NCBI GenBank assembly: GCA_905339155.1
Contig: CAJPFJ010000001.1
Span: forward strand, 62,001 to 126,000
DNA from: Methanosarcinales archaeon
Lineage (GTDB): Archaea > Halobacteriota > Methanosarcinia > Methanosarcinales > Methanoperedenaceae
DNA: 64,000 bases
Direction of reading: 5' to 3'
This document shows positions 22,087 to 38,974 of this stretch, in pieces. Below the pieces are notes generated by a model. That model had not been told where the DNA came from and did no database searches. It saw only the letters and a list, made by a program, of their open reading frames with translations. The position numbers and the translations under genes are program-made. The first letter of the stretch is position 1. The number at the start of each line of letters is the position of its first letter.

Positions 22087-22668
22087 TTACGATATCTTCA
22101 ATAATCTATAGTATGCTGCCCCTGTGCAGGGTTTACAATAAATTTCATTTCCTTTTATTTCAGTCAGGCTCTCAGGTAGCAGCTCACCGCATTCTTTGCA
22201 TGTTGCTATTCCAGTTTTTTCAAATTTTTGATCCCTGTTTATCTCAACCTCCTGGATAAGAAAATGTTTTTCATCCATATCCAGTAATTGTATGCCAAGC
22301 TCCTCTTCCTCTTCATGGAAGAGCTTACCAAGCCGCATCATCCATTTATTCATCAGCGTTGAGTGCTTATTTGCTTCACCCTTAAGTGCAACGCGCACGC
22401 CTTTTTTCGTCCTGGCATCTCCAAGAGTGAGAGCAAGCTTTCCATAATCTTCAACAAAAGCGCTCCCGTGTCCAAGGGTGCAGCCGGTCGCAGCCTGCAT
22501 GGCATCTGCAAGGCATCGTGCTGTTTCGGATATCCCGATAAGATACTTATCTCCCTTTTTAGTGTTCATTCGAACAAGCGCAATCTCACTCATTCTTAAT
22601 CCTAGAGCAATACCAGGCGCCAGATGGCCGTGAAGATCTATTGCAAGATTTACGATTTTTTTATCCAT
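22087..22668 (-). CDS. FmdE-family protein with C-terminal zinc ribbon
   Basis: 193-residue protein of the FmdE family, named from a polypeptide that co-purifies with molybdenum formylmethanofuran dehydrogenase; its exact role is unsettled and family members occur as stand-alone metal-binding proteins. Visible: the D-L-H-G-H-L-A-P-G motif (His 13 and His 15), a Cys-containing C-L-A-D-A-M-Q-A-A-T-G-C segment that binds metal, and C-terminal C-x2-C pairs (CKECG, CKPC) forming a ribbon. No other fmd/fwd genes adjoin. It overlaps by 8 bases the end of a truncated molybdate transporter gene, in a Mo-related cluster with MoeA. Confidence 0.85.
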   Translation of the reverse strand: MDKKIVNLAIDLHGHLAPGIALGLRMSEIALVRMNTKKGDKYLIGISETARCLADAMQAATGCTLGHGSAFVEDYGKLALTLGDARTKKGVRVALKGEANKHSTLMNKWMMRLGKLFHEEEEELGIQLLDMDEKHFLIQEVEINRDQKFEKTGIATCKECGELLPESLTEIKGNEIYCKPCTGAAYYRLLKIS

Positions 22669-23002
22669 GATTCTCCTCTTTTATACATTCGTGGCTGTTG
22701 AATTTCCAGCAGTATGAAAGTATCATCCCAGCAAGGAATCCCGATGCCATGTTAATTGCAAAAGAAGTGACTGCTACAATCAGCATAGCTTTCATTGGCT
22801 GAATCGCCATTGGTAGTCCGAATATGAAACCATTGAATATATTAAAAATCCCACTAAAGACGAGTATTGGGGAAGGATTCATGCCTGAAATAGTCACAAC
22901 ACCAACCAAAAATACGATAAAAGTACCCAGGTCTCCAAGTGAACCTGCTATTTCATTTCTATCGAACCGTATGTTCAGTTTTTCAAAATTTATTCTCTTC
23001 AT
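22661..23002 (-). pseudogene. Truncated MOT1-family molybdate/sulfate transporter (N-terminal part)
   Basis: 113 residues that match only the beginning of MOT1-type molybdate transporters: R-N-E-I-A-G-S-L-G-D-L-G-T-F-I (14-28 or so), a G-x-N-P-S-P-I-L segment and G-L-P-M-A-I-Q-P-M-K-A. Full-length family members have about ten membrane segments and more than 350 residues; here only three segments are present before a polar tail (NSHECIKEENHG) that runs into the FmdE-family start. The last codons supply that gene's AGAGGAG ribosome site. A deletion fusing the transporter stub to the next gene is the simplest view; a functional half-size protein is not excluded. Confidence 0.65.
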
Positions 23003-23051
23003 AAATTATTGTATGATGATGCTCTCGTAGAATTTCTTATACCTGATTCTC

Positions 23052-24233
23052 CTAACTGAATAGATGGACTTCAACTAATTCGCCTTTTTTCATATTCCTA
23101 TCTGTTAACACATATCCATCCACGATAGTGGATCGGGGGGATGCCGAGATGATCGCAGTCTCATATTCCTTATCAAACAGTTTCATACCCGAATTTTTAT
23201 ATCCCATTGTATTTGCCATGTCTTGCGCTATTTTCACGAAAAGAATGTAACAAAAACCTTCTTCCTGGAGCAATACATCCTCATTTATCGTTAGTTTGCA
23301 GGTTGCTCTGGGTATTTTTGTGAAATAACTTCTTACCACCATTTCAAGGGCTGCAAAAGCGCCTGTGGGCTTACCCGGAAGGCTGAATACGGGAGTGTCG
23401 TTGATTATTCCCACTGCTATCGGCTTACCAGGCCGTATTGCGACCCGATGGAATATAATTTCACCCGTTTTGTCAATGATATCTGCAACATAATCGCGCT
23501 CGCCCACTGACACGCCGCCCGTTGTAAAAACAGCATCATGTTTTTCACAGGCTTTTAGCAGGATTTTCTTTGTTTTATCGTAGTCATCGGGCACCGTGCC
23601 AATAAATGTGGATTCGCATCCCAGTTCCTTCATGAAGCCCTGTATTAACACCGCATTGGTATTTTTTATCATTCCGTTATGAATCTCCGTGCCCGTAGAG
23701 ATTATGCCTGTTCTAATCTTTCTGAATACCGGAACTTTTTCGATACCAAGGCTGTATAAAAGCGCAGCGCTCTGGGGCATTATTCGATGATTTTCCTCAA
23801 AAATCTTATCCCCTTTCTTGTAATCCGAGCCCGCACGGAACACATTTTCCCATTTTTTTAAACTTTTGCCGAAAAGGTGATCTTTTTTGACCTGTGCATC
23901 TTCAATCTTTAGCACAGCATTCGCGCCCTGCGGGAGTAATGCACCTGTCGCTATTGCCATTGCTTCACGGCCATTAAACTTTGCCATGCAATCACCTGCA
24001 TATACACTGCCTGATATTTTCAGGGGATACCCATCTTCGCAACGAACAGCAAACCCATCCATTGCAGCTATATCGAATTCAGGAGACATTGAACCTGCAA
24101 AAATAGTTTCACTGAGTTCCCTACCTATGGAATCATTAAGATCGACCAGTTCAGATTCACGCCTGAAGTAATATTCGTTCTTTAACTCGTTTATTTTTTC
24201 AATCGCTTCTTTAAGTGATATTGGTGATTTCAT
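23052..24233 (-). CDS. moeA: Molybdopterin molybdenumtransferase MoeA
   Basis: Inserts molybdenum (or tungsten) into adenylated molybdopterin, the last step of cofactor synthesis. 393 residues from ATG 24233 (GGTGAT 9 bases upstream; the GTG at 24242 is not used). Signatures: the FDIAAMDGFAVR motif, TGALLPQGANAVLKIED, the MoCF-fold TGGVSVGERDYV with G-T-E-I before it, and RPGKPIAVG / FSLPGKPTGAF. Followed by the truncated molybdate transporter. Located near a large Mo-enzyme module transcribed the other way. Confidence 0.94.
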   Translation of the reverse strand: MKSPISLKEAIEKINELKNEYYFRRESELVDLNDSIGRELSETIFAGSMSPEFDIAAMDGFAVRCEDGYPLKISGSVYAGDCMAKFNGREAMAIATGALLPQGANAVLKIEDAQVKKDHLFGKSLKKWENVFRAGSDYKKGDKIFEENHRIMPQSAALLYSLGIEKVPVFRKIRTGIISTGTEIHNGMIKNTNAVLIQGFMKELGCESTFIGTVPDDYDKTKKILLKACEKHDAVFTTGGVSVGERDYVADIIDKTGEIIFHRVAIRPGKPIAVGIINDTPVFSLPGKPTGAFAALEMVVRSYFTKIPRATCKLTINEDVLLQEEGFCYILFVKIAQDMANTMGYKNSGMKLFDKEYETAIISASPRSTIVDGYVLTDRNMKKGELVEVHLFS

Positions 24234-24284
24234 ATTTTGCACATCACCTGTTTGAGGTTATTTTTATAATATGGCAGTTCGACT

Positions 24285-24548: not shown

Positions 24549-25487
24549 ATGAGTTTTATGATATCCGAAAAAAAAATGATTCTGTTGGTTATACTATCAT
24601 TTGTGATTATAAGCGGATGTCTTGAACCAGAAGGAGTTGTAAAAGTCAACTTATCAAATCGTACAACAGACAATATCGATAATTCTGATGAACAGATTCT
24701 CAGGATTGCAGTATCTTCAATCATTTCGCCCGATGAGACTCTGGTTTATTATCAGGATATGTTCGATTATCTGTCTCTGAAAATGGATGTTCCAGTGAAG
24801 CTTGTCCAACGTAAGACCTATCAAGAAGTAAACGACCTCGTTCGGAAAAATAGCGTGGATGCAGCTTTTGTATGCAGTCTTGCATTTATAGATGGAAAAG
24901 ACCAGTTTGGCATGGAACTCCTTGTAGTGCCCATAGTGCGAGGAGAACCTCGCTATTACTCATATATTATAGTGCCGGATGACAGTAACATCAAATTGCT
25001 TGAAGAATTGAAAGGAAAGACATTTGCCTTCACGGACCCACTCTCCAATTCAGGAAAGCTATCGCCTGAGTATATGATAGCGAAGATAGGTGAGAACCCG
25101 GAAACTTTTTTTAAGCTCACATTTTTCACTTACAGCCATGATAAATCCATCCAGGCGGTAGCCGAGAAGATGGTTGACGGCGCTGCAGTGGATAGTCTGG
25201 TCTGGGATTTCAAAAATGCAACATACCCGAGATTTACTTCAAGAACTAGAATTATAAGTAAGTCTCCTCCATATGGCATTCCTCCTCTGGTGGTCTCAAA
25301 AGACATTGACCCGGTTCTGAAAGAGAAATTGCGCAAAATTCTTCTTCAAATGCATGAGGATAAAAAGGGAAAAGAGATACTGGATAGAATTATGATAGAC
25401 CGGTTCTCAGAAGCTAATGACAGTCTCTATGATTCTGTAAGAGAGATGAAAAAGGTAGTCAGCGATGCTAAAACAAAAGATACATAG
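24549..25487 (+). CDS. PhnD-like periplasmic-type binding lipoprotein (AioX/ArrX-like position)
   Basis: 312-residue solute-binding protein of the phosphate/phosphite/phosphonate (PhnD-like) family. The N-terminus is a lipoprotein signal: basic SEKK, hydrophobic ILLVILSFVII, lipobox ISGC with Cys 24, so the protein is anchored outside the membrane. Then the family pattern: LRIAVSSIISPDETLVYYQDMFDYLS, LLEELKGKTFAFTDPLSNSG, and AAVDSLVWDF. It is not next to ABC transporter genes; instead its 3' end overlaps a sensor kinase gene by 23 bases. In AioX/ArrX/ArxX systems a protein of this family binds an arsenic oxyanion and hands the signal to a kinase. Ligand here unknown. The start might also be the Met at 24558. 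Confidence 0.85.
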   Translation: MSFMISEKKMILLVILSFVIISGCLEPEGVVKVNLSNRTTDNIDNSDEQILRIAVSSIISPDETLVYYQDMFDYLSLKMDVPVKLVQRKTYQEVNDLVRKNSVDAAFVCSLAFIDGKDQFGMELLVVPIVRGEPRYYSYIIVPDDSNIKLLEELKGKTFAFTDPLSNSGKLSPEYMIAKIGENPETFFKLTFFTYSHDKSIQAVAEKMVDGAAVDSLVWDFKNATYPRFTSRTRIISKSPPYGIPPLVVSKDIDPVLKEKLRKILLQMHEDKKGKEILDRIMIDRFSEANDSLYDSVREMKKVVSDAKTKDT

Positions 25488-27216
25488 TATAAATAATTTC
25501 ATTGGTGGGGGATTGGTAAGGAATTTTGTTGTCTGGATAGTCGTTATAATAATGCTCCTTGGAGTCCTGACCACTATTTTTGTGCAGGTAAGCCTCACAA
25601 AGACATTGTCAGAAGACCTTCGTGAGAGAGGACAGGTCATATCAAGGAATCTGGCAACAAGCATTCTAGAATCTATACTGATCGAGGATACGGTATATGT
25701 ACACAGACTCGTTGAGAATACAAAAAAGACAGAAAAAGATGTTAAATATATTTATATAACCGATGCGGGGGGTAAAGTGCTGGCGCATACATTCGAAGGC
25801 GGTTTTCCAGGCGAACTTTTCACTGTTCAGATAGATCAGGAAAATAGTCCCCATCTTCTCGATACGGGTGATGGCATTGTCATTGATTTTACTGCGCCAA
25901 TATTGGACGGAAGGGCAGGTTTTGTCCATATCGGAATGGATGAAACGTCTATGCATGAAAGGATAAACCAGACAAGCCGGGCAATAATCGCTCTCACTCT
26001 TCTTGTAGGGGCTCTGGGTGTCTTAATGGCGTATATAGCGGGAAATTATCTGACAAGACCAATACGTTCCCTGGTAAAAGGAACCGAAGAAATAGGCAGG
26101 GGGAATCTTGGATATCAAATAAAAACCGACTCAACAGATGAAATAAATATTCTTTCAAAAGCATTCAATGAGATGTCATATAACCTGAATAACAGCATAA
26201 ACGAACTGCGTGAATCAGAAGAGAGATATAAAAAACTCGTTGACAGTATAAGTGATGCTGTCATATTGATAGATTCACAAAAAAAGATCCTTTCCTGGAA
26301 TAGTGGGGCTCAAAAGATATTTGGCTATTGCTTAGAGGAAGTTGCAGGCAGTAAAATTAATATATTGTTTTATACAATGAAAGGGGCTGATAATTCGGAA
26401 ATACCGGATGGTGAGAACGTTTTCAAGAGAAATGATGGCTCTAATTTCCCCGGTCTTATAAGTAATAAACCATTGCAGGATCGTCGCAATCCTGGCAATG
26501 TTGTGGTTATCAAAAATATTACAGAACAGAAGGAGATGGCAAATCTTGAAACACGGCTCATTCAATCAGAAAAGCTTTTCATGTTAGGTAAATTGGCTGC
26601 TGGAGTAGCTCATGAGATAAACAATCCCCTTACCACTATATCCCTTCACACCCAGATAATGTTAAAGAAAACGTGGGATGAAAAAACTGACCGCAGACTC
26701 AAGATCATTAATAAGGAAACGAATAGAGTAGCACGTATTGTGAAGAGACTGCTTGAATTCGCGCACGAGTCAGAACCCAAAATAGGTTCGATAGACATAA
26801 ATAGAGAGATAGATAATGTGCTAAATATCCTCGAACCACAATTAGATAGTATGAAGATAACCACTGACCTTATGCCTCTTCCATTCATCATGGCTGATAG
26901 TGAACAGATCCAACAGGTTATCATGAATATATTGACAAATTCAATACAATCTATAACAATGGACGGAGAAATAATTATAAAAACAGCAGCAAAACATAAT
27001 CATATAGATATCAGCATAACCGATAATGGTTGCGGTATTCCGCAGGATAATATTGGAAGAATATTTGATCCTTTTTTCACGACCAAAATGCCAGGCGAAG
27101 GAACAGGACTGGGATTGTCGATTTGTTATGGGATCATTAAAAAACACAAAGGTTCGATCGACGTAAAAAGTGAAGTTGGAACTGGAACAACTTTTACAAT
27201 AAGATTACCGATTTGA
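25465..27216 (+). CDS. Membrane sensor histidine kinase (HAMP-PAS-HisKA)
   Basis: 583 residues. Order: TM1 about 19-41; an extracellular sensor region 42-170; TM2 about 172-192; HAMP 193-250; PAS 252-360; HisKA with the phospho-acceptor His 383 in AAGVAHEINNPL; HATPase with N box (MNILTNSIQS), G1 (ITDNGCGIP), and GEGTGLGLSI. Starts within the binding-protein gene, 23 bases before its stop, and is followed 4 bases later by the response regulator, giving a three-gene signalling operon. The extracellular region is well placed to contact the lipoprotein. AioS/ArrS kinases play this role in bacteria. Confidence 0.92.
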   Translation: MLKQKIHSINNFIGGGLVRNFVVWIVVIIMLLGVLTTIFVQVSLTKTLSEDLRERGQVISRNLATSILESILIEDTVYVHRLVENTKKTEKDVKYIYITDAGGKVLAHTFEGGFPGELFTVQIDQENSPHLLDTGDGIVIDFTAPILDGRAGFVHIGMDETSMHERINQTSRAIIALTLLVGALGVLMAYIAGNYLTRPIRSLVKGTEEIGRGNLGYQIKTDSTDEINILSKAFNEMSYNLNNSINELRESEERYKKLVDSISDAVILIDSQKKILSWNSGAQKIFGYCLEEVAGSKINILFYTMKGADNSEIPDGENVFKRNDGSNFPGLISNKPLQDRRNPGNVVVIKNITEQKEMANLETRLIQSEKLFMLGKLAAGVAHEINNPLTTISLHTQIMLKKTWDEKTDRRLKIINKETNRVARIVKRLLEFAHESEPKIGSIDINREIDNVLNILEPQLDSMKITTDLMPLPFIMADSEQIQQVIMNILTNSIQSITMDGEIIIKTAAKHNHIDISITDNGCGIPQDNIGRIFDPFFTTKMPGEGTGLGLSICYGIIKKHKGSIDVKSEVGTGTTFTIRLPI

Positions 27217-27220
27217 TATT

Positions 27221-27853
27221 ATGAAAAATATCCTGATAATTGAGGATGAAAAAGAAATCCGGGAAGGGCTGGTAGAACTTCTGGAAGATGCAGGGTTCTT
27301 AGTAGATTCTGCCGAGAATGGTCAACAAGGGCTTGAAAAAATCGGGAAAAGAGATTTTGATGTCATTGTGACCGACCTCATCATGCCTGTTGTTGGTGGA
27401 ATGGAAGTATTACGGGAAACAAAACATATAAAACCACACACCTGTGTAATCCTGATCACAGCTTTTGCTACTGTTGATAATGCAGTTGAAGCCATGAAAG
27501 CAGGGGCATCAGATTACATCACAAAACCATTCAGAATAGATGAAGTTCTAATAAAAATACGAAAGGTTCTTGCAGTGGCAGAATTTGATAAATCTCAAAT
27601 CTTTGATACGGATCTGATCAAGGCAATCTCAAATAAAACAAGAAAGGATGCAGTAAAACTTCTTTATAAGGCAGGTAAACTTAAGTTTACAGAGATACAG
27701 CGCGGTCTAGATATTGAAGATGCCACCAGGTTGAACTTCCATATGAGAGTGATGAAGGAACATAAGATCATAGAGCAGGACGGGGAGAAATTTTATATGC
27801 TAACACCTGTTGGAAAGAAATTGTTTGAAGTTTTAAGAAGTGCTGATCTTTGA
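27221..27853 (+). CDS. Response regulator with receiver and winged-helix domains
   Basis: 210 residues. The receiver (1-120) has the acidic pair E8/D9, phospho-acceptor Asp 52 in VTDLIMP, a Thr/Ala position in LITAF and K in YITKPF. The rest (about 130-210) is an archaeal winged helix (ISNKTRKDAVKLLYKAGKLKFTEIQ, then LNFHMRVMKEHKIIEQDGEKFYMLTPVGKKLFEVL, abridged), so unlike many archaeal regulators it can bind DNA directly. Unlike bacterial AioR/ArrR it has no sigma-54 AAA domain, as expected for an archaeon. Its likely target is the adjoining tatA/oxidoreductase promoter region (27854-27989). Confidence 0.92.
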   Translation: MKNILIIEDEKEIREGLVELLEDAGFLVDSAENGQQGLEKIGKRDFDVIVTDLIMPVVGGMEVLRETKHIKPHTCVILITAFATVDNAVEAMKAGASDYITKPFRIDEVLIKIRKVLAVAEFDKSQIFDTDLIKAISNKTRKDAVKLLYKAGKLKFTEIQRGLDIEDATRLNFHMRVMKEHKIIEQDGEKFYMLTPVGKKLFEVLRSADL

Positions 27854-27989
27854 ATTTTCTCCAGGCAAAACTCATTGACTGGAATTTTTCTTCCTGTAAA
27901 ATCAATTAATTAGAAATTTTTTTCTAAAAAATCTTTAATATGTATATTGCTTTACATAATTAATAATTAGCTTTGGATGTGACAAAGAT
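27854..27989 (+). promoter_or_regulatory. Intergenic region with hairpin and TATA-like element ahead of tatA
   Basis: Contains TTAGAAA-TTTT-TTTCTAA (about 27910-27927), a 7-bp stem that may end the signalling operon, then TCTTTAATATGTATATTGC, a TATA-like element about 50 bases before the tatA ATG. AT-rich direct elements (AATTAAT, AATTAG) surround it and could be regulator sites. No longer repeat is visible. Confidence 0.35.
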
Positions 27990-28160
27990 ATGATAGGATC
28001 TCAAGAATTGATAATTTTATTTGCTGCAGTCCTGCTACTTTTTGGAGCAAACAAGTTACCTGAGCTGGCGCGCTCTATGGGAAAAACAACAGGTGAATTC
28101 AAGAAGGTAAGAATTGAATCTGAAAAAGAAATTAATGAAATTGATCTAATAAAAAAATAG
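27990..28160 (+). CDS. tatA: Twin-arginine translocase subunit TatA
   Basis: 56-residue protein with the family pattern: a short exterior N-terminus (MIGSQELI), one membrane helix (IILFAAVLLLFGANKLPELARSMG; the F-G-x-x-K-L-P-E-L motif is diagnostic), an amphipathic helix and a charged tail. It lies 32 bases upstream of a Tat-signal-bearing molybdoenzyme, so it likely supplies export capacity for this enzyme. No tatC is in the window. Confidence 0.9.
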   Translation: MIGSQELIILFAAVLLLFGANKLPELARSMGKTTGEFKKVRIESEKEINEIDLIKK

Positions 28161-28192
28161 ATGTGGAATAATTATGAAAAGGAGGCTGTAGT

Positions 28193-30742
28193 ATGGTATT
28201 GGACTTAAGAATGAAACGGAGAAGTTTTTTAAAAATTGCAGGTGTAGCAGGCGCTGCAACCCTTGGACTTGGTTTTGGCGGAACTGTTATTAGAGCGCTT
28301 GCCCAGGGCACTGATGCGGTCACGGAAGAAAAATGGGTCTCAAGCGTATGTATCCAGTGTCCTGCAGGATGTGGAACTAAAGTCAGAGTGATCAACGGGA
28401 AAGCTGTCAAGATAGAAGGGAACCCGGATCATCCTTACAGCAATGGCAAGCTATGTCCTAAAGGATACGCTGGACTTCAATTGCTTTATGATGTTGACAG
28501 GGTAAAATCCCCCATGAAAAGGACGAATCCTAATAAAGGTCCGAACGAGGATCCAAAGTTCATGGAAGTCTCATGGGATGAGGCGCTCAATGACATAGCT
28601 GCACGATTGAATAAGATCAGGAATGAAGGAAAATCACATACTGTCGCTTTCCTCAGCGGCAGGAACCAGGGAAGAGCGGGCTCAGTATGGACAACTTTCA
28701 CGAAGCTGTATGGTACTCCCAATAATATTGGTCATAGCTCGATATGTGCAGATGCAAGTAAAAAAGCAAGGTTATGCATGGATGGAACGGATGATTACTG
28801 TGCTTATGACTGGGATAACTGTAATTACGTGCTCAACTTCGGGGGCGCAACCCTCGAGGCATGGAGACCTACAAATCTGATGCTTCAGAAATGGTCGCAC
28901 ATGCGAAGAGGGAGACCTATCAGGGCAAAGCAGGTCATGGTAGACACAAGATACTCCACGACCGCAATTAAAGCTGATGAGTGGCTACCAGTTAAACCAG
29001 GAACAGACGGCGCACTGGCTCTGGGGATCTCACATGTCATTCTTACTGAAGGATTATGGGATAAAAGCTTTGCAGGTGATTTCAAGACACCAGGACGAAA
29101 GTTCACCACCGGAGAAACAGTGACAAATGAAGACTTTGAAGAAAAATGGACTTTGGGGCTTATAGATTATTGGAACAATGTCCTGATTAATTTTACACCA
29201 GCAAAAGCAAGTGAGATAACAGGCATCCCCGCTGAGCAAATCATCCGGATAGCAAAGGAATTCGCAACAGCAAACCCTGCCATAGCAGCAGGCGAAAGAG
29301 GTGCAGGCGCCCACACCAATGGTACTTACAACCACATGGTGATCCATTCTCTTAACGCACTTGTCGGAAGCATGTTCGCTAAAGGCGGGGTGATGTACCA
29401 GATGGGTGTGCCCTATGCAAGTCTTTCTTTGAAGGACGACGATTATATGGATGATATCGCCAGGAAGGTTGAAACAGAATTCAAGGCTCATACTCTTGAA
29501 AGAATAGATGAGGCAAAGAGCGATGAATGGCCTATTGCCAGCAATGTATACCAGAATGTGCCTGATCATCACGCAAAGGGTGATCCCTATAAACTGAGTA
29601 TGATCTTCACCTATTATACCAATCCATTATTCTCGATGCCAAATCCCCAGCGGGCAAGGGAAGCTTTTAAAGATGTTTTCATGGTCGAGACCTCAAGTTA
29701 TTTGAGCGAAACAGCTCTTTATGCGGATTATATACTGCCGGATGCTTATTACATTGAGAGAAAGCAGGATATGGCAGTATATGCAAGTTCAGGTTATCCT
29801 GTTACAGGATTTAGAGAGCAGGCAGTAAAACCAATATATAATAACAGGGATTCAGTGGATGTAATAATAGACCTGGGTAAGAGAATAGGCGGAAAAATGG
29901 GAGAGTATTTCGCCAAACTTGGCAACCATGATAACATGCTGCGTGAAATAGCGAAAGGCTTTGAAAAAATACAGGGAGATAATGGAGTTAACGGCTTTGA
30001 TTCATGGGCTGAAAAAGGAGCATGGTATAAAAAACCTTACATCTATCGCTTCTCCAATGGGAATTTCTACGAATGGGACGGCACCGGATACAATAAGGAG
30101 ATGAAAAAGACCGAAGAAGAAAAAGAAGAAATGAAGGATGGGAAAAAGGTCAAAACAATGACTGTCAAGGACCCGGTGAAGGACAAACTCCTTAAAACAA
30201 AATCTGGTAAGTTCGAGTTTAGAAGTTCAAAGCTTGAGGGATTTACAGATAATCAAAAAGAAATACTAAAGAGTGAGTTGAAATCCCCCGACCTTTATGC
30301 ATACCCCCATTACGAAGAACCGCATTTTGCAGGTAAAGAAGAAGGTTTCCCACTTCATATGAGTTCGCCCAAGATGATAACCCATGCAGAAGGCAGGGGT
30401 GCAAACACACAGTGGCTGCAAGAAAGGTTCGGGATAGTTATCGGGAAAGGATGGACAAGCTGGGTAGAACTTAATCCTGATAAAGCCGAAGAGCTTGGCA
30501 TCAAGAACGGTGACGAAGTCTGGGTTGAATCCCCGATAGGTAAGATCAAGGTAATGGCTGTGATAAATCCGGGAAATCCTCCATGGATGGTGGTTTTCCC
30601 GTTCGAGCACGGGCACTGGAACTATGGGAGATATGCTGGTGGTCTGGGGGCTAACCCCAATGAGATCATGGCAAATCTATCTGCTGTGATCTCAGCTCAG
30701 AGTTGTACCAATGCAACAATGGTCAAAGTTTACAGGGCGTGA
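28193..30742 (+). CDS. Tat-exported molybdopterin oxidoreductase, catalytic subunit (Arr/Psr/Phs-like)
   Basis: 849-residue member of the DMSO reductase (CISM) family. Twin-arginine signal KRRSFLK at 8-14; [4Fe-4S] ligands Cys 53, 56, 60 and 88 (C-x2-C-x3-C-x27-C); then the molybdopterin domains. Cys 185 in GHSSICADA sits where arsenate and polysulfide/thiosulfate reductases have the Mo-ligating cysteine; the HSSIC-A context and length are more like ArrA/ArxA than PsrA, but family placement needs a tree. C-terminal dinucleotide-binding domain from about residue 720 (VELNPDKAEELGIKNGDEVWVESPIG). AAAAGGAGG precedes the start. Genes for the electron-transfer, membrane and chaperone subunits follow. 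Substrate could be arsenate, polysulfide, thiosulfate, or another oxyanion. Confidence 0.88.
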   Translation: MVLDLRMKRRSFLKIAGVAGAATLGLGFGGTVIRALAQGTDAVTEEKWVSSVCIQCPAGCGTKVRVINGKAVKIEGNPDHPYSNGKLCPKGYAGLQLLYDVDRVKSPMKRTNPNKGPNEDPKFMEVSWDEALNDIAARLNKIRNEGKSHTVAFLSGRNQGRAGSVWTTFTKLYGTPNNIGHSSICADASKKARLCMDGTDDYCAYDWDNCNYVLNFGGATLEAWRPTNLMLQKWSHMRRGRPIRAKQVMVDTRYSTTAIKADEWLPVKPGTDGALALGISHVILTEGLWDKSFAGDFKTPGRKFTTGETVTNEDFEEKWTLGLIDYWNNVLINFTPAKASEITGIPAEQIIRIAKEFATANPAIAAGERGAGAHTNGTYNHMVIHSLNALVGSMFAKGGVMYQMGVPYASLSLKDDDYMDDIARKVETEFKAHTLERIDEAKSDEWPIASNVYQNVPDHHAKGDPYKLSMIFTYYTNPLFSMPNPQRAREAFKDVFMVETSSYLSETALYADYILPDAYYIERKQDMAVYASSGYPVTGFREQAVKPIYNNRDSVDVIIDLGKRIGGKMGEYFAKLGNHDNMLREIAKGFEKIQGDNGVNGFDSWAEKGAWYKKPYIYRFSNGNFYEWDGTGYNKEMKKTEEEKEEMKDGKKVKTMTVKDPVKDKLLKTKSGKFEFRSSKLEGFTDNQKEILKSELKSPDLYAYPHYEEPHFAGKEEGFPLHMSSPKMITHAEGRGANTQWLQERFGIVIGKGWTSWVELNPDKAEELGIKNGDEVWVESPIGKIKVMAVINPGNPPWMVVFPFEHGHWNYGRYAGGLGANPNEIMANLSAVISAQSCTNATMVKVYRA

Positions 30743-30746
30743 AATT

Positions 30747-31478
30747 ATGGTAAGATATGGAATGGTCATTGATCTTGATAGATGCGTTGGATGTGCTGCA
30801 TGCGCTGTAGCCTGTAAAGCAGAGAACAGTGTTACATCAAGCACTCCTGAAGATTACAAGAAAAGAAGGCTGATGGAGTGGAACCGAGTTGTCACGGTCT
30901 TTAAAGGAAAGTTTCCCAATGTGAGTGCAAGTATCATGCCTCTTATCTGCAACCACTGCGAACACCCCCCCTGCGTGAAGGTTTGCCCTGTGGATGCCAC
31001 ATATAAAAGGGAAGATGGACTTGTGCTTCAGAGATACGAGCGCTGCATAGGCTGCAAATATTGTATGGTGGCATGCCCATACCAGCAGAGATTCTTTAAT
31101 TTCTATGATCAGAAAAATAAATATATGGAGAGACTCGAAAAGGAAGCAGAAGATCTTAAAAAGGAAAACAAGGATGTTCCGATAACTTATTTGGAGATCC
31201 CGTATCACAATCCAGATGTGCCTTCCAGGATATCAGGTATAGTAGAAAAATGCACGTTCTGCCACCACAGGATTGATAAAGCGATAGCTGAAGGGAGAAA
31301 AATTGGCTCGCCCGATGGCGTTGAGCCAGCATGTACCCAGGCGTGTCCTGCAAAGACAAGGACTTTCGGTGACCTGGATGATCCTGACAGCGAGGTCTCT
31401 AAGTTGCTTCGCAGCAGAAGGAATTATCAGCTTCGTGCAGACCTGGGTACGGAACCTCAGGTATATTATCTGGATTAG
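30747..31478 (+). CDS. Four-cluster ferredoxin subunit of the oxidoreductase
   Basis: 243 residues with four [4Fe-4S] motifs of the DmsB/NrfC/PsrB type: CVGCAACAVAC near the start, CNHCEHPPCVKVCP, CIGCKYCMVACP, and CTFCHHR with CTQACP. It passes electrons between the membrane subunit and the catalytic subunit outside the membrane, being co-exported with the Tat-signal partner. ATG at 30747 is chosen, 4 bases after the preceding stop; a frame extending to 30711 overlaps the catalytic gene. The insert with EKEAEDLKKENK between clusters is charged and somewhat longer than in PsrB. Confidence 0.93.
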   Translation: MVRYGMVIDLDRCVGCAACAVACKAENSVTSSTPEDYKKRRLMEWNRVVTVFKGKFPNVSASIMPLICNHCEHPPCVKVCPVDATYKREDGLVLQRYERCIGCKYCMVACPYQQRFFNFYDQKNKYMERLEKEAEDLKKENKDVPITYLEIPYHNPDVPSRISGIVEKCTFCHHRIDKAIAEGRKIGSPDGVEPACTQACPAKTRTFGDLDDPDSEVSKLLRSRRNYQLRADLGTEPQVYYLD

Positions 31479-31489
31479 GAGACAAAAAC

Positions 31490-32644
31490 ATGGAATACAC
31501 AAAAATTAATGGGAAATCTACCGGGTCTTACGTTTTGATTGGGATCCTGGCAATAATGGTTGCTGTGGGCTTATACGAATTTATCCAGGGTATGATCCAG
31601 GGCCATGAAAGTTTCGGTACGAGTAATATTGTTCCCTGGGGCCTGCCTATAACATCGGTAATATTTTTCATAGGGGCAAGTGCAGGCGCTCTAATGCTAT
31701 CATCCCTGACCTATGTTTTCGGAAAGGAAGAATATAAGCCAGTATCAAGGGTATCCATATTCCTTGCGATACTCCTTATAATCGGAGCCCTGACAACCAT
31801 ATTAGGGGAACTTGGTCGCCCGGATAGGTTCATGAATTTATTCCTATATGGGCCCAGCAACCTGACATCGATGTTCGCGGTAAATTCCTTCTTATATACG
31901 GGATATATTCTTCTCTCAATTGTATATCTCTGGACAACTTTTAGAGAGGATCTATTGAAAACCACAAAGCTCCTCGCAGCCCTGGCAGCAACTCTTGCGA
32001 TATTCGTACACACCGGTACCGGCGCCATATTTGGGTTCATAGTGGCTAAAGAACTCTGGTTCTCGCCGCTTCTCCCAATACTTTTCATTGTAGCAGCCCT
32101 GACATCTGGAGTAGCGTTGCTCATATTGATTCTCACCATTACTTTCAAGTTGATAGGGTACAGGATGGATGAGAAACTTGTAGTCGGATTGGGTAAATAT
32201 CTTATGGCTTTCCTGCTCCTTCAGTTGTTCCTTGTGTTCGTTGAAAACATCGTACGCACCTATGGAGGAATGGGTGGGGGAGAGATGTCAAAATTCCTGT
32301 TCGAAGGTCCATACAGTTACGTGTTCTGGGGGATACAGATAGTCTTTGGGACCGTGGTACCAATAATCATCCTCTCTTCAAAAAAGACGATGATCAAAGT
32401 GCAGATAGCTTCCATGCTTGCAGTTATTGGTGTGTTTGCGGAAAGGTTTAACCTTGTGATACCAGGTCAATCAGTACCATCTGCGCAGGTAGTTGGAAGG
32501 ACGATGATGGGCTTATACGGTGAACCTGCCGTATATTCAATTTCAGGAGCAGAGGTCGCTATTATCCTCGGAGTAGTTGGCGCAATAGGAATAGCATATA
32601 TTATAGGGTTGAGGTTTATTAAACTCCTCCCCTCCCAACCTTGA
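31490..32644 (+). CDS. NrfD/PsrC-family membrane subunit
   Basis: 384-residue integral membrane protein with about ten hydrophobic segments. NrfD-family hallmarks: the early W-G-L-P-I-T-S-V-I-F-F-I-G-A-S-A-G-A segment and E-L-G-R-P-D-R-F after the third helix. Such subunits exchange electrons with the quinone pool (here presumably methanophenazine or menaquinone) and have no haem. It is the membrane anchor of the oxidoreductase complex. Ends LLPSQP, and its stop lies 3 bases before the TorD-like start. Confidence 0.92.
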   Translation: MEYTKINGKSTGSYVLIGILAIMVAVGLYEFIQGMIQGHESFGTSNIVPWGLPITSVIFFIGASAGALMLSSLTYVFGKEEYKPVSRVSIFLAILLIIGALTTILGELGRPDRFMNLFLYGPSNLTSMFAVNSFLYTGYILLSIVYLWTTFREDLLKTTKLLAALAATLAIFVHTGTGAIFGFIVAKELWFSPLLPILFIVAALTSGVALLILILTITFKLIGYRMDEKLVVGLGKYLMAFLLLQLFLVFVENIVRTYGGMGGGEMSKFLFEGPYSYVFWGIQIVFGTVVPIIILSSKKTMIKVQIASMLAVIGVFAERFNLVIPGQSVPSAQVVGRTMMGLYGEPAVYSISGAEVAIILGVVGAIGIAYIIGLRFIKLLPSQP

Positions 32645-32646
32645 TT

Positions 32647-33210
32647 ATGGAGAAAGAATTTTATAAAATATTAAGTCTTGTCTTTCATAAACCTGACCGG
32701 GAATTTACTTCATATTTGAGAGATGGCTTTATTGAGGATGTAAAGTTCCTTAATGAAGCCGTTGTTAGTGGTTTCTCCACTTTTCTTAATGAGAATAGGA
32801 AAAAGGATGATGAGAAATTCTATGAAATGCTTGCTGTAGAATACACAAGGCTATTTACAACTGCAATACCGCAAGTTCCATGCCCCCCTTATGAATCAAT
32901 GTATAGGGAAGATGTCATAATGGGACATTCCACATTATCTGTGCTTGATTTTTACAACAGGGCCGGATTGAATGTAATTGAAAAATTTCACGATCTTCCG
33001 GACCATGTGGCAGTTGAACTGGAATTCCTGTATTATCTCACAGAAAATGGATTCAGCGCCCAGCATGATTCATTTATGAAGGAACATTTCTCAAAATGGG
33101 TTCCTAAATTCTGTGAAGATGTTAAACAGAATGACAGGATCGGCTTTTACGGGCATGCTGCCGTGATATTAAAAGATTTTATTAATGTTGAAAATATGAA
33201 CAAAGAGTAG
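32647..33210 (+). CDS. TorD/DmsD-family molybdoenzyme chaperone
   Basis: 187-residue all-helical cytoplasmic chaperone. It has the family features: Y-T-R-L-F near the middle (residues about 67-72), the P-C-P-P-Y-E-S motif (about residues 82-88), and DHVAVELEFLYYL. Such proteins bind the Tat signal peptide and hold the apo-enzyme until the Mo cofactor is inserted. The start is the ATG at 32647; a TTG at 32641 is not used. Confidence 0.88.
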   Translation: MEKEFYKILSLVFHKPDREFTSYLRDGFIEDVKFLNEAVVSGFSTFLNENRKKDDEKFYEMLAVEYTRLFTTAIPQVPCPPYESMYREDVIMGHSTLSVLDFYNRAGLNVIEKFHDLPDHVAVELEFLYYLTENGFSAQHDSFMKEHFSKWVPKFCEDVKQNDRIGFYGHAAVILKDFINVENMNKE

Positions 33211-33221
33211 AGGTGAGATAA

Positions 33222-33791
33222 ATGAATGGTGAAAATAAAACATTGCTTGTGTTTGCCGCAGTAGTTATAGGCATAATCCTGGGAATATTCCTTGAGCAAA
33301 AGATATCTGGAGAAATAAATGCTATATCTTCTGATGTCAGGAAACTTGAGATGTCAATAAAAGGAATTGATTCTTCAATAAAAGCAGTTGATTCATCTGT
33401 AAAAGATGTAAAAACATCTTTGGCAGAAAAAGAGAAAGTTTCGTTCATCAGGGATATGCAGGAGATCGGTCGCAGAATGCTCTCCCTTGATTATGCAGGA
33501 AAGTTTGAAAGATGGGATGCTGCAAAAATTGAAATAGACGAATTGGATAAAACACTTCAAGATGCAGCTATTATGGATTCTCAAAGAGCTCCCACTATCC
33601 AGGATTTCCGAAACACGTATATTCCGAAATTAAGGGACGCAGCTTCTAAGAAGGATGCTATGAGCTTTGAAAGTGTGTGGAATGAAACGTATAATGCCTG
33701 CGTTGGATGCCATAAGGGTGCGGGCTCGCCTCCATCAGCTATCGAGACATTAAGGGAAATTAGTTCTGAGATTGATCAATTGAGCGGGTAA
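33222..33791 (+). CDS. Membrane-anchored monohaem cytochrome c
   Basis: 189-residue protein. N-terminal membrane segment (TLLVFAAVVIGIILGIFL, residues 7-24), a heptad-like coiled coil (about 30-70, IDSSIKAVDSSVKDV), then a helical domain with one haem c site, C160-V-G-C-H164, near the C-terminus, in a layout like that of four-helix cytochrome c' proteins (haem motif in the last helix). It ends the operon of the oxidoreductase and could carry electrons between the complex and other multihaem cytochromes outside the cell. A haem-containing partner is not usual in Psr or Arr operons of this design. Confidence 0.82.
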   Translation: MNGENKTLLVFAAVVIGIILGIFLEQKISGEINAISSDVRKLEMSIKGIDSSIKAVDSSVKDVKTSLAEKEKVSFIRDMQEIGRRMLSLDYAGKFERWDAAKIEIDELDKTLQDAAIMDSQRAPTIQDFRNTYIPKLRDAASKKDAMSFESVWNETYNACVGCHKGAGSPPSAIETLREISSEIDQLSG

Positions 33792-34079: not shown

Positions 34080-35504
34080 ATGGCTTATCAATTTATTGAC
34101 CGCGATAAAGAAATGTCATTCCTCAAAGAAAAATACTCCTCCGGGTCAGCTGAAATGATTATCATTTACGGCAGAAGGCGTGTTGGTAAAACCGAACTGA
34201 TAAAACAATCATTATCCAAAAGTCCGCTAAAATCCCTGTACTTGCTTGGAGAGCTACAGAAGGAAAACCAGCTGTCGTCCATATACTCAAACATTGCCGG
34301 ACTATCGCTTGAGGATGATTTCCTGAAAAACAGCCCTTTGAGTACATGGCAGGCGTTCTTTGACTACCTTACAAGATACATCGAAAAAAACGGGATGGTG
34401 CTTGTATTTGATGAGCTTCCGTATATCCATAAGACAAATCCCAATTTCATTTCAATACTCCAGTTTTTCTGGGATGAAAAATGGAAGAATATGAACCTCA
34501 AACTTATTCTTTGCGGTTCAAGCATTTCGATGATGCAAAAGATAGCGCTTTCATATTCAAGTCCTATATACGGAAGGCGCACAGGACAGATTGACCTTCA
34601 ACCTCTTAAGTATCTTGATTTCAGGATACTGTTCAATGAATGGGAGGAGGAGGGAATCATGGGCGCCTATGCTGTCCTGGGAGGCATACCGCGATATGCG
34701 GAAGAATTTGACAGAAAGAAAAACCTTTATGAAAACATAGGTAAAGCTTTTCTGGATAAGGACGCTGTTCTTTATAAAGAGGCAAAGTTCCTGCTAATGG
34801 AAGAATTGCAGGATTTTGCCAATTATTTCTCTATTCTCAAGGCCATTGCTATCGGGAAAAATACGTTCAATGAGATATCTAATTTTTCTGGTGTAGCCTC
34901 GAACAAACTCTTCGTTTATATATCGAAATTGATAGAATTAAATATTGTCAGGAGAGACATACCTGTAACATTATCAAAAGAAAAATCCACCCGGGTTGGC
35001 AATTATGTCCTTAAGGATTATTTCTTCAGGTTCTGGTTCAGGTATATTTATCCAAACTCCTCCCTTATCGAGATTGGGAAACCTGAAATCGTTCTTGATA
35101 TCATAAAAAAGGATTTCGATAAATATCTGGATACGATCTTTGAGGACATTTCAACCGAACTTCTCCGAAATTTGTCCCTGAATGGAAAATTGCCTCTTTT
35201 CACGAAGTGGGGTAAGTGGTGGCGAATGGATTATGAAATAGATATAGTTGCAACGAATGAAGCAACCGGAGACATACTTTTCTGCGAGTGTAAATGGGAG
35301 GATAAAGAGACAGATAGGGCAGTTCTTGAAGAACTACTGGAAAAGTCCGCAAAGGTAGAATGGGTCGATGAAAAACGGAATAACCATTATGCTGTCGTTT
35401 CAAGGAAAGGATTCACGAAAGGAGCGAAAGGGTTTGCTGATGAGAAGAAAATCCAGATGTATGATTTCAACGAATTATCAAGAAAAGCCATTAGCATAAA
35501 TTAA
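34080..35504 (+). CDS. Archaeal AAA-type ATPase with DUF234-like C-terminus
   Basis: 474-residue protein of the archaeal ATPase family. N-terminal F-I-D-R-D-K-E-M opening, Walker A G31-RRRVGKT-38, Walker B LVFDELPY near residue 108, sensor region LILCGSSISMM and the Y-G-R-R-T-G-Q-I motif with the arginine finger. The C-terminal part has a winged helix (FNEISNFSGVASNKLFVYISKL) and a PD-(D/E)XK-like DUF234 domain (YEIDIVATNEATGDILFCECKW). Function in the cell is not established; expansion of this family in archaeal genomes is common and it may act on DNA or in toxin-like defence. Confidence 0.88.
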   Translation: MAYQFIDRDKEMSFLKEKYSSGSAEMIIIYGRRRVGKTELIKQSLSKSPLKSLYLLGELQKENQLSSIYSNIAGLSLEDDFLKNSPLSTWQAFFDYLTRYIEKNGMVLVFDELPYIHKTNPNFISILQFFWDEKWKNMNLKLILCGSSISMMQKIALSYSSPIYGRRTGQIDLQPLKYLDFRILFNEWEEEGIMGAYAVLGGIPRYAEEFDRKKNLYENIGKAFLDKDAVLYKEAKFLLMEELQDFANYFSILKAIAIGKNTFNEISNFSGVASNKLFVYISKLIELNIVRRDIPVTLSKEKSTRVGNYVLKDYFFRFWFRYIYPNSSLIEIGKPEIVLDIIKKDFDKYLDTIFEDISTELLRNLSLNGKLPLFTKWGKWWRMDYEIDIVATNEATGDILFCECKWEDKETDRAVLEELLEKSAKVEWVDEKRNNHYAVVSRKGFTKGAKGFADEKKIQMYDFNELSRKAISIN

Positions 35505-37489: not shown

Positions 37490-38974
37490 ATGTTTAAAAA
37501 AGTCCTGATAGCCAACCGCGGTGAAATCGCTATCCGCATAATGCGAGCATGCAGGGAACTCGATGTAAAGACAGTGGCAGTGTATTCGGAAGTGGATAAA
37601 AATGCGCTTTTTGCAAAATACGCAGATGAGGCTCATCCTATAGGACCAGCCCCCGCAAGCCAGAGCTACCTGAACATGGACAACATATTCGACGTAGCGC
37701 ACAAAACAGGCGCGCAAGCGATCCATCCAGGTTACGGTTTTCTTTCAGAAAACGAGATTTTCGCGGACAGGTGCCAAAGAGAAGGGATTATTTTCATAGG
37801 CCCTCGAGGAAAAACTATCGAAAGTGTTGGAAGTAAGATCGCTGCAAAGAAGACCATGAAAGCCGCAGGGATACCGGTCATACCGGGAAGCGAGAACGGT
37901 ATTGATGATCTTGATGCGGCTATTGATATCGCAGAAGCAATTGGTTATCCTGTCATTGTAAAAGCCTCGGCTGGCGGCGGAGGCATAGGCATGAAAGTGG
38001 TCAGGAAGACCGATGAACTGCGTGAAACCATCGAATCCACAAGGAGGGTGGCAAAATCATCCTTCGGGGATGCAACAGTTTTTATCGAAAAATACCTGGA
38101 AGAGCCGCGCCATATTGAATTCCAGATACTTGCAGATAATTATGGCAACATTATCCATGTGGGTGACCGTGAATGCTCTATCCAGCGCAGGCACCAGAAA
38201 TTGATAGAAGAATCCCCCTCTCCTATCATGACGCTTGAATTGAGAGAAAAGATGGGCTCTGATGCAGTAAAGGCGGCTGCAGCCATAAATTATACAAATG
38301 CCGGAACAATTGAGTTCCTTTATTCAAAAGGCGATTACTATTTCCTGGAAATGAACACAAGGCTCCAGGTAGAGCATCCGATAACGGAAATTGTAACAGG
38401 AGTTGACCTTGCCAAAGAGCAATTAAGGATAGCCTCGGGAGAGGAATTAAGTTATGAACAGTCGGATATCCAGCAAAGAGGCTGGGCTATTGAATGCCGC
38501 CTGAACGCTGAGGATCCTCTTAACAACTTCACGCCATCACCTGGAAAACTCAGAAGATACCGTTCTTCAGGCGGTCCAGGCGTCCGCGTGGACAGCGGAG
38601 TGCATACAGGATTTACCATTACGCCGTACTATGATTCCCTTATCTCGAAACTCACCGTCTGGGGGAGGGACAGGAACGAGGCTATCGCCCGGATGAAGCG
38701 TGCTTTATATGAATATATCATAGTCGGGGTAACCACTAACATACCTTTCCACAAAGCTGTTATGAATAACGAATATTTCAAGCGCGGAGAGTTGACTACT
38801 CATTTCATTGAAGATCACAATATCATAAAAGAAGTGGAAAAGATCATCGAAGCTGAAAAAGAAAAGGGTGCTACGCTTGCATCTGCCCTCGGAGCAGATG
38901 ATAAAAAAGTAGCAGCAATAACAGCGGCGGTTGGTACATATATCCGGAATGCAGAAGTCATGGGAACAAAATGA
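37490..38974 (+). CDS. pycA: Pyruvate carboxylase subunit A (biotin carboxylase)
   Basis: 494-residue ATP-grasp enzyme that carboxylates biotin on PycB. Segments: [29 protein letters not shown], the Gly-rich ATP loop [40 protein letters not shown], and [13 protein letters not shown] with catalytic residues. Stop overlaps the birA ATG. Length is typical of archaeal two-subunit pyruvate carboxylases. Confidence 0.95.

Follow-up and report, generated by a model that had tools for sequence, protein, structure and literature searches.

Three-component systems built around the arsenic-oxyanion sensors AioX, ArrX and ArxX have been described from bacteria. In the available part of PMC5908839, AioX and ArxX are reported to bind arsenite, and ArrX arsenate and, weakly, phosphate. 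When ArrX was tested with tetrathionate, thiosulfate and selenate, the same part reports no binding. It also names seven pocket residues of AioX, one of which, Cys106, is absent in PhnD. On the enzyme side, ArxA-like enzymes have been reported in BLZ2, IPS-1 and M.Nitro (Leu et al. 2020, PMC7327174), and five Methanoperedens genomes with arxAB homologues were kept out of a cluster analysis because the function was unknown (Ospino et al. 2019, available part of PMC6549141). Here we analyzed a window of 64,000 nucleotides of archaeal DNA (contig CAJPFJ010000001.1, positions 62,001 to 126,000; coordinates below are those of the window) in which genes for a binding protein (X), a histidine kinase (S) and a response regulator (R), together XSR, immediately precede tatA and the operon of a Tat-exported molybdoenzyme, MopB. 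With a probability of roughly 60%, this is an archaeal arsenic-oxyanion three-component sensor that controls an Arr/Arx-type respiratory molybdoenzyme, with arsenate as the most likely ligand of X. The system would most likely be an arsenate-responsive archaeal variant of ArrXSR with archaeal signaling partners.

All nine genes of the locus are open frames on the forward strand, with domains as expected in all but the last. X (24549 to 25487) is a lipid-anchored oxyanion-binding protein, S (25465 to 27216) is a membrane histidine kinase whose start overlaps the end of X by exactly 23 bases, and R (27221 to 27853) is a response regulator. They are followed by tatA (27990 to 28160, 56 aa, PF02416) and by the molybdopterin subunit MopB (28193 to 30742), which has the twin-arginine signal KRRSFLK. 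Domain matches then identify a 4Fe-4S electron-transfer subunit of the ArrB/PsrB type (30711 to 31478), an NrfD membrane anchor that would be quinol linked by analogy (31490 to 32644), and a TorD/NarJ-type chaperone (32641 to 33210). The last gene encodes a membrane-anchored helical protein of 189 aa with one CxxCH motif (33222 to 33791). The original prediction, made from the sequence of the window, had listed X to the chaperone, overlap included, and each was found in its place with the expected domains.

The window belongs to a genome of 3.34 Mb in 79 contigs (G000). X queries against the contigs of relatives matched five loci, all from Candidatus Methanoperedens and with 83 to 94% identity, and we therefore assign the host to this genus. 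A MopB of at least 80% identity occurs in 7 of 60 relatives, the window genome included, and these are 7 of the 34 family genomes searched. XSR lies directly upstream on the same strand in all seven. These genomes are close kin, and 7/7 is not a count of independent events. Even so, the recurrence takes the gene order beyond chance; a search for this synteny in Methanoperedens and relatives had been suggested beforehand. An X of the window group (at least 75% identity) was found in 8 of the 60 relatives, namely the seven MopB genomes and G007 (MnB_21).

X matches Pfam PF12974 with 220.9 bits (cut-off 27) and has the lipobox IISGC, with Cys24 as the lipidated residue. Its relatives begin at the fourth codon, and the true start may therefore be 24558. 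Against PDB sequences, ArrX (6x6b) came first with 226 bits, followed by AioX (149), PtxB (68) and phosphonate binders (61 at most). The identity to ArrX of Chrysiogenes arsenatis is 41.9% over 270 columns. Structural likeness was judged by sequence, because the predicted model of X (6-row alignment) had a mean pLDDT of 36.4 and was not used for fold search. All seven pocket residues are present in X as Y91, C109, Y136, S166, S168, H197 and D215, which correspond to Y88, C106, Y131, S161, S163, H192 and D210 of AioX. In an alignment of 48 proteins, the seven residues are complete in all eight X proteins of the window group, the window included. In contrast, neither Cys106 nor Asp210 occurs in any of five rows that we took as ABC-type (PtxB, one PhnD-type protein of known structure, two plasmid PhnD proteins and a PhnD-like protein of G000 contig 10), where position 106 is Gly or Ser and position 210 is Ser or Ala.

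The split between sensors and ABC proteins received support of 100/99 in the 48-row tree and 100/100 in a 21-row tree, a subset from which 27 of the 48 rows were dropped. The bacterial references in these comparisons were sequences on plasmids and in PDB. In both trees, X falls on the AioX/ArrX/ArxX side. The possibility, raised beforehand, that X would group with the phosphonate proteins and share their pocket was not borne out. Therefore, we assign X to the AioX/ArrX/ArxX clade on these alignments, and claim membership rather than a branching order. We considered whether ArrX is the nearest relative of the archaeal X and do not claim it (87/80 in the 48-row tree, unsupported in the 21-row tree).

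More distant X-like proteins provided a control for the pocket. Nine genomes of another family of the same order encode X-like proteins of 32 to 36% identity, and in both of these loci that were viewed more widely the X-like gene is followed by a kinase 27 to 28% identical to S. All nine proteins have lost the pocket, with Pro88, Arg106, Phe161, Arg or His163, and Gln192; Asp210 is kept. The pocket is thus not kept by inertia or family age alone. In these pairs of X-like protein and kinase (L082-L090, L094, L095), the pocket appears entirely re-tooled.

The enzyme points to the same class of substrate. Against PDB, MopB matched ArrA first (400 bits), with thiosulfate reductase at 181. Its identity is 44.9% and 45.3% to ArxA of Cereibacter ORIO and Sulfuricella, respectively, and 35.8% to Shewanella ArrA. 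In trees drawn from 21 rows, of which one was left out of the first and six of the second, MopB is sister to ArxA with support of 99/99 (20 rows) and 96/94 (15 rows). These comparisons place MopB in the Arr/Arx clade, as sister to bacterial ArxA. Arsenic is therefore favored over phosphite or sulfur oxyanions. For the active site we used ArrA residue numbers, with the Mo ligand presumably in the HSSIC stretch. In the alignment, HSSIC, Arg165 and Tyr210 are kept, Asn replaces Tyr166, and Lys198, which neither ArxA row has, is kept as well. MopB and the ArxA-like enzymes of Leu et al. are almost certainly the same, as the genomes of BLZ2, IPS-1 and M.Nitro carry the operon studied here. The enzyme itself has thus already been reported in this genus. 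The words regulator, sensor, two-component and histidine kinase do not occur in the main text of Leu et al. (PMC7327174), the available part of Ospino et al. (PMC6549141) likewise describes no archaeal sensor, and we found no report of one for this enzyme in the open-license literature.

The choice of arsenate rests on a loop of X. In the loop that moves on arsenite binding, X reads AVSSIISPDETL and ArrX reads AVSSMISPLETM. At the same position, X has IIS and ArrX has MIS, against VFL in AioX and Cereibacter ArxX and AFL in Sulfuricella ArxX. The hydrophobic VFL-type loop of AioX and ArxX is thus not found in X, and the loop is of the ArrX type. Since ArrX binds arsenate, we consider arsenate the most likely ligand of X. 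The original prediction had listed arsenate, arsenite, phosphite or a sulfur oxyanion. The list can be shortened in favor of arsenic by the clade of the enzyme and of arsenate by the loop, but it is not fully narrowed, because in G007 the XSR genes precede an enzyme of the TtrA family.

S has two membrane spans around an sCache_3_2 domain, followed by HAMP, PAS, HisKA (with His383) and HATPase_c. R consists of a receiver (Asp52) and a DUF7347 winged helix (31.9 bits, cut-off 27.6); the domain scan identified it as neither a sigma-54 activator nor a FixJ-like regulator. We compared both proteins by blastp in a ten-sequence database, a search that remote kinship may escape. Residues 1 to 200 of S matched the partner kinases of four other archaeal X types with E values of 4e-26 to 3e-43. 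With the bacterial kinases, the same region gave 0.041 for Azoarcus (the best), 1.1 for Cereibacter ArxS, 2.0 for AioS and no match for Sulfuricella ArxS; full-length S had a weak match to the latter (E 0.013) over the second span and HAMP. The output domain of R matched only R2, the regulator of an additional set described below, and the bacterial regulators in the comparison are sigma-54 activators according to Pfam or annotation. Because the sensor domain of S and the output domain of R match none of the bacterial partners compared, X and the enzyme look like the parts shared with bacteria, and S and R look archaeal. A winged-helix output in place of a sigma-54 activator had been predicted, and DUF7347 bears this out. 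However, it is less exceptional than had been thought, since in Firmicutes and Chrysiogenetes, too, ArrR is not of the sigma-54 type (available part of PMC5908839).

Between R and tatA lies a conserved promoter block of 61 bp (27884 to 27944, forward strand). It contains the palindrome TTAGAAA-N4-TTTCTAA (27910 to 27927) beside a TATA-like stretch. The block aligned with that of G014 with one gap and a score of 70 (best of 500 shuffles, 33), and with that of Mnv1 without a gap and a score of 62 (best shuffle, 35). The palindrome is present in all eight cassettes with 0 to 3 mismatches. The window holds one match, and so do 5 of 100 shuffles. It is therefore the conserved position that speaks for the palindrome, since the sequence itself is neither rare nor enriched. 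We propose this block as a candidate site of R. Autoregulation was considered and rejected, as the palindrome (up to 3 mismatches) is absent from about 250 bases upstream of X in all eight cassettes (260 bases in Mnv1). A copy with two mismatches before a TtrA-like operon of G005 is suggestive only, with a background of 4 matches in 240 kb, 8 of 2,000 shuffles, and an alignment score of 33 that does not exceed the best shuffle (38).

Two genomes, G014 and G024, each carry two adjoining sets, in the order MopB-FeS-NrfD-TorD-X-S-R and then X-S-R-MopB-FeS-NrfD-TorD. The first enzyme groups with ArrA (100/99) and the second with ArxA. Both X proteins of the additional sets, those with the ArrA-like enzyme, also have all seven pocket residues. 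In these genomes (L041:6486-6638, L042:12543-12702), only the first codons of tatA are left between R and MopB, and the promoter block is kept. G005 has both the ArxA-like and the TtrA-like kind of operon, and its TtrA-like operon is also led by tatA, beyond fmdE, MOT1 and moeA. In the R-tatA gap of Mnv1 (L053:3714-4146), the block is followed by a second promoter-like stretch that by eye resembles the one before tatA in the TtrA-like operon of G005, as if modules recombined at tatA. Across these loci, the regulator side seems constant, and it is the enzyme side that seems to vary. Just after the TtrA-like module of G007 lies a transposase-like gene (L007:19634-20878; DUF4277, DDE).

Several observations weigh against an arsenate sensor that controls this enzyme. 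ArrA was the best NCBIfam model for MopB, but its 458.7 bits are far below the cut-off of 1600. X passes TIGR01098, the general phosphate/phosphite/phosphonate ABC binding-protein subfamily, with 148.6 bits (cut-off 112.05). According to the available part of PMC5908839, the pocket residues alone do not fix the selectivity between arsenate and arsenite. The place of ArrX inside the sensor clade differs between the 48-row and 21-row trees; for this reason no branching order is claimed, and the likeness of the loop to that of ArrX may be a shared ancestral feature. The palindrome shows no enrichment across G000, with 2 sites at up to one mismatch against 6 for a reversed control. No ars genes were found among the flanking genes examined; acr3 is present in G000, on a different contig from the operon. 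In G007, the same promoter block and tatA stand behind R, and FeS, NrfD, a 1,048-aa MopB and a chaperone come next. For this MopB, the TtrA model gave the highest score (568 bits, against a cut-off of 1750), and the MopB of the window had no match in G007 at 1e-60. The G007 enzyme may be the SrdA that Leu et al. describe from Mn-2. Because the same regulatory head precedes a TtrA-family enzyme there, synteny alone does not settle the ligand. Finally, among 24 further X paralogs of the Methanoperedenaceae, 11 have all seven pocket residues and 13 do not; two of the 13 differ only by Thr163, which is also found in Sulfuricella ArxX. Homologues of MopB, FeS, NrfD and TorD were found beside none of the 10 of these 24 that were viewed with wider context. 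Because paralogs keep the pocket with no Mo genes nearby, the pocket alone does not imply control of a Mo enzyme.

These paralogs differ at further points. Several copies have Ser, Asp, Asn or Gly at position 106, as if drifting toward other ligands. On contig 34 of G000 (L045:8083-12052), another ArrX-like protein is accompanied, by Pfam, by a large kinase with PAS and GAF domains and by a regulator that consists of a receiver alone.

From the observed gene order, the clades of X and the enzyme, the conserved pocket and the conserved promoter block, we propose the following sequence of events. X, anchored by its lipid on the outer face of the membrane, would bind an arsenic oxyanion, most likely arsenate, in the pocket with Cys109 and Asp215. 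Loaded X may then act on the Cache domain of S, which would autophosphorylate on His383 and hand the phosphate on to R at Asp52. Through its winged helix, R may act at the block before tatA and turn on the genes for TatA, the Mo and FeS subunits, NrfD and the chaperone. The enzyme would take electrons from menaquinol, which methane oxidation would supply, and transfer them to arsenate.

The alternative that survives best, although we consider it unlikely, keeps this architecture and changes the direction of the chemistry. In this scenario, X senses arsenite and the ArxA-like enzyme is an arsenite (or antimonite) oxidase or works in both directions. A methane oxidizer requires electron acceptors, however, and this favors arsenate. 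The position of MopB as sister to bacterial ArxA fits the arsenite scenario, but the ArrX-like loop of X and the Lys198 that MopB presumably shares with ArrA, and that both ArxA rows lack, do not. ArxX and AioX do bind arsenite with the same pocket residues (available part of PMC5908839), and Leu et al. (PMC7327174) cite ArxA as working both ways. No arxB2 was found in 27854 to 33791, which again argues against the arsenite scenario, and arxB2 is also missing from four bacterial genomes (available part of PMC6549141).

It is also unlikely, and less probable than arsenite sensing, that X responds to another oxyanion, such as tetrathionate, thiosulfate, selenate, antimonate or phosphate, in the way that TtrS and ThsS sense sulfur oxyanions through PhnD-like sensors. 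Because the sensor domain of TtrS is PhnD-like, kinases with a domain of this kind were sought near thiosulfate reductase genes (available part of PMC5408782). The TtrA-family enzyme behind the G007 cassette is consistent with this idea, as is an X with the arsenic pocket in Azoarcus KH32C, which lies beside a MopB outside the Arr/Arx clade, though with ars genes. However, X reached only 18.1 bits on the TtrS model (cut-off 750), the arsenic pocket retains its Cys and Asp, and an Arr/Arx-type enzyme lies behind seven of the eight cassettes. The failure of ArrX to bind tetrathionate, thiosulfate or selenate also argues against it.

An improbable scenario is that XSR is a general sensor of arsenic or phosphate stress that adjoins the operon and does not control it. 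The paralogous X sets with no Mo genes nearby and the weak binding of phosphate by ArrX would suit such a sensor, but they are countered by the 7/7 linkage, by two genomes that each have a tandem pair of enzyme-specific sets, and by the promoter block kept between R and tatA. Least probable by far is that X serves a phosphonate or phosphite ABC transporter, which its TIGR01098 score would allow: X is below the cut-off of the NCBIfam PhnD model (159.3 bits against 261.1), its clade and pocket are wrong for this role, and no ABC ATPase or permease was found among the flanking genes scanned by Pfam (37490 to 38974, judged by eye, is a biotin carboxylase), so that we reject it on pocket, trees and gene context together.

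An arsenate-responsive sensor in control of this operon would make arsenic-dependent methane oxidation a regulated trait, which may be open to testing. Laboratory studies linking the arr genes of Methanoperedens with arsenate reduction and methane oxidation are described as lacking in the available part of PMC10038221. An arsenic-type sensor before the enzyme is evidence for an arsenic substrate that is independent of enzyme phylogeny. It would also mean that a sensor family so far described in bacteria reaches into the archaea, where its signaling partners differ. More tentatively, we suggest that Methanoperedens combines a fixed head (arsenic-pocket XSR, operator and tatA) with exchangeable Mo modules, ArxA-like in seven genomes and TtrA-like in one, with a second XSR and its own ArrA-like enzyme in two. 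Such an archaeal-built three-component system might direct methane oxidation to arsenate, and perhaps to a second oxyanion, when needed, and paralogs of the sensor, both in the genus and in another family of the order, might have drifted to other ligands.

The surroundings of the operon were also inspected. Upstream and divergent (22087 to 24242, reverse strand) lie fmdE, a decayed gene for a MOT1 molybdate transporter, and moeA, which would serve Mo supply; L007, L009 and L010 have the same neighborhood. A large internal deletion has left the MOT1 gene (22661 to 23002) with matches to only residues 1 to 98 and about 40 C-terminal residues of its 388-aa counterpart in L010. In G034, from another family, an ArrA-like operon (L097:7277-14840) is divergent from fmdE and moeA and is led by a TFX-type regulator; the X and kinase of this genome are on a different contig. 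At the end of the operon, the CxxCH protein is probably a monoheme cytochrome, and L008, L009 and L010 also have a homologue behind the chaperone. It has no match in Pfam or NCBIfam, and a profile search of PDB gave 17 weak matches, the best being a designed coiled coil (E 0.0088), with class II cytochrome c at 0.72. Its predicted structure (mean pLDDT 54.0) was not used for fold search. Directly 3' of the operon, 34080 to 35504 encodes an ATPase_2 and DUF234 protein with an Mrr-like nuclease tail and no evident link.

The original prediction of an archaeal counterpart of the bacterial arsenic XSR systems was right in substance, given the clade and pocket of X, the Arr/Arx-clade enzyme, and the fact that X, S and R are separate genes next to a Mo enzyme. 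PhnD, PtxB and HtxB share the Pfam family and fold class of X; PhnD and PtxB, which supply the five ABC-type rows (HtxB was not aligned), differ by Gly or Ser at 106, the absence of Asp210 and a separate clade. TtrSR and ThsSR also use a PF12974-type sensor to control a Mo reductase (available part of PMC5408782). However, their sensor is fused to the kinase and their ligands are sulfur compounds, whereas X and S are separate genes here. The AioXSR systems of NT-25 and NT-26 have the binding-protein clade and pocket in common with X, but AioBA is a different Mo enzyme, the regulator is of the sigma-54 type, and AioS has no Cache match. In Azoarcus KH32C, XSR is divergent from FeS-NrfD-MopB-TorD.

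The ArxXSR systems with arxB2ABCD (Cereibacter ORIO, Sulfuricella and plasmid copies) have a related X and a related MopB, which forms the sister clade. In Cereibacter ORIO, the ars genes, X, S, R, B2, A, B, C (NrfD) and D (TorD) follow one another in one direction. In Sulfuricella, XSR is divergent from B2ABCD, and the ars genes are some kilobases off. The archaeal locus differs in having no B2, another loop in X and an R that is not of the sigma-54 type, and in the addition of tatA and the CxxCH protein; the sensor domain of S has no detectable similarity to that of Cereibacter ArxS. Compared with ArrXSR/ArrAB of Chrysiogenes arsenatis, the enzyme here is ArxA-like, with NrfD and a chaperone, and R has a winged helix, whereas ArrR is FixJ-like by description. 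As far as the available part of the literature describes that system, the two share the pocket, the loop type, an XSR set beside the Mo enzyme, and a regulator that is not of the sigma-54 type.

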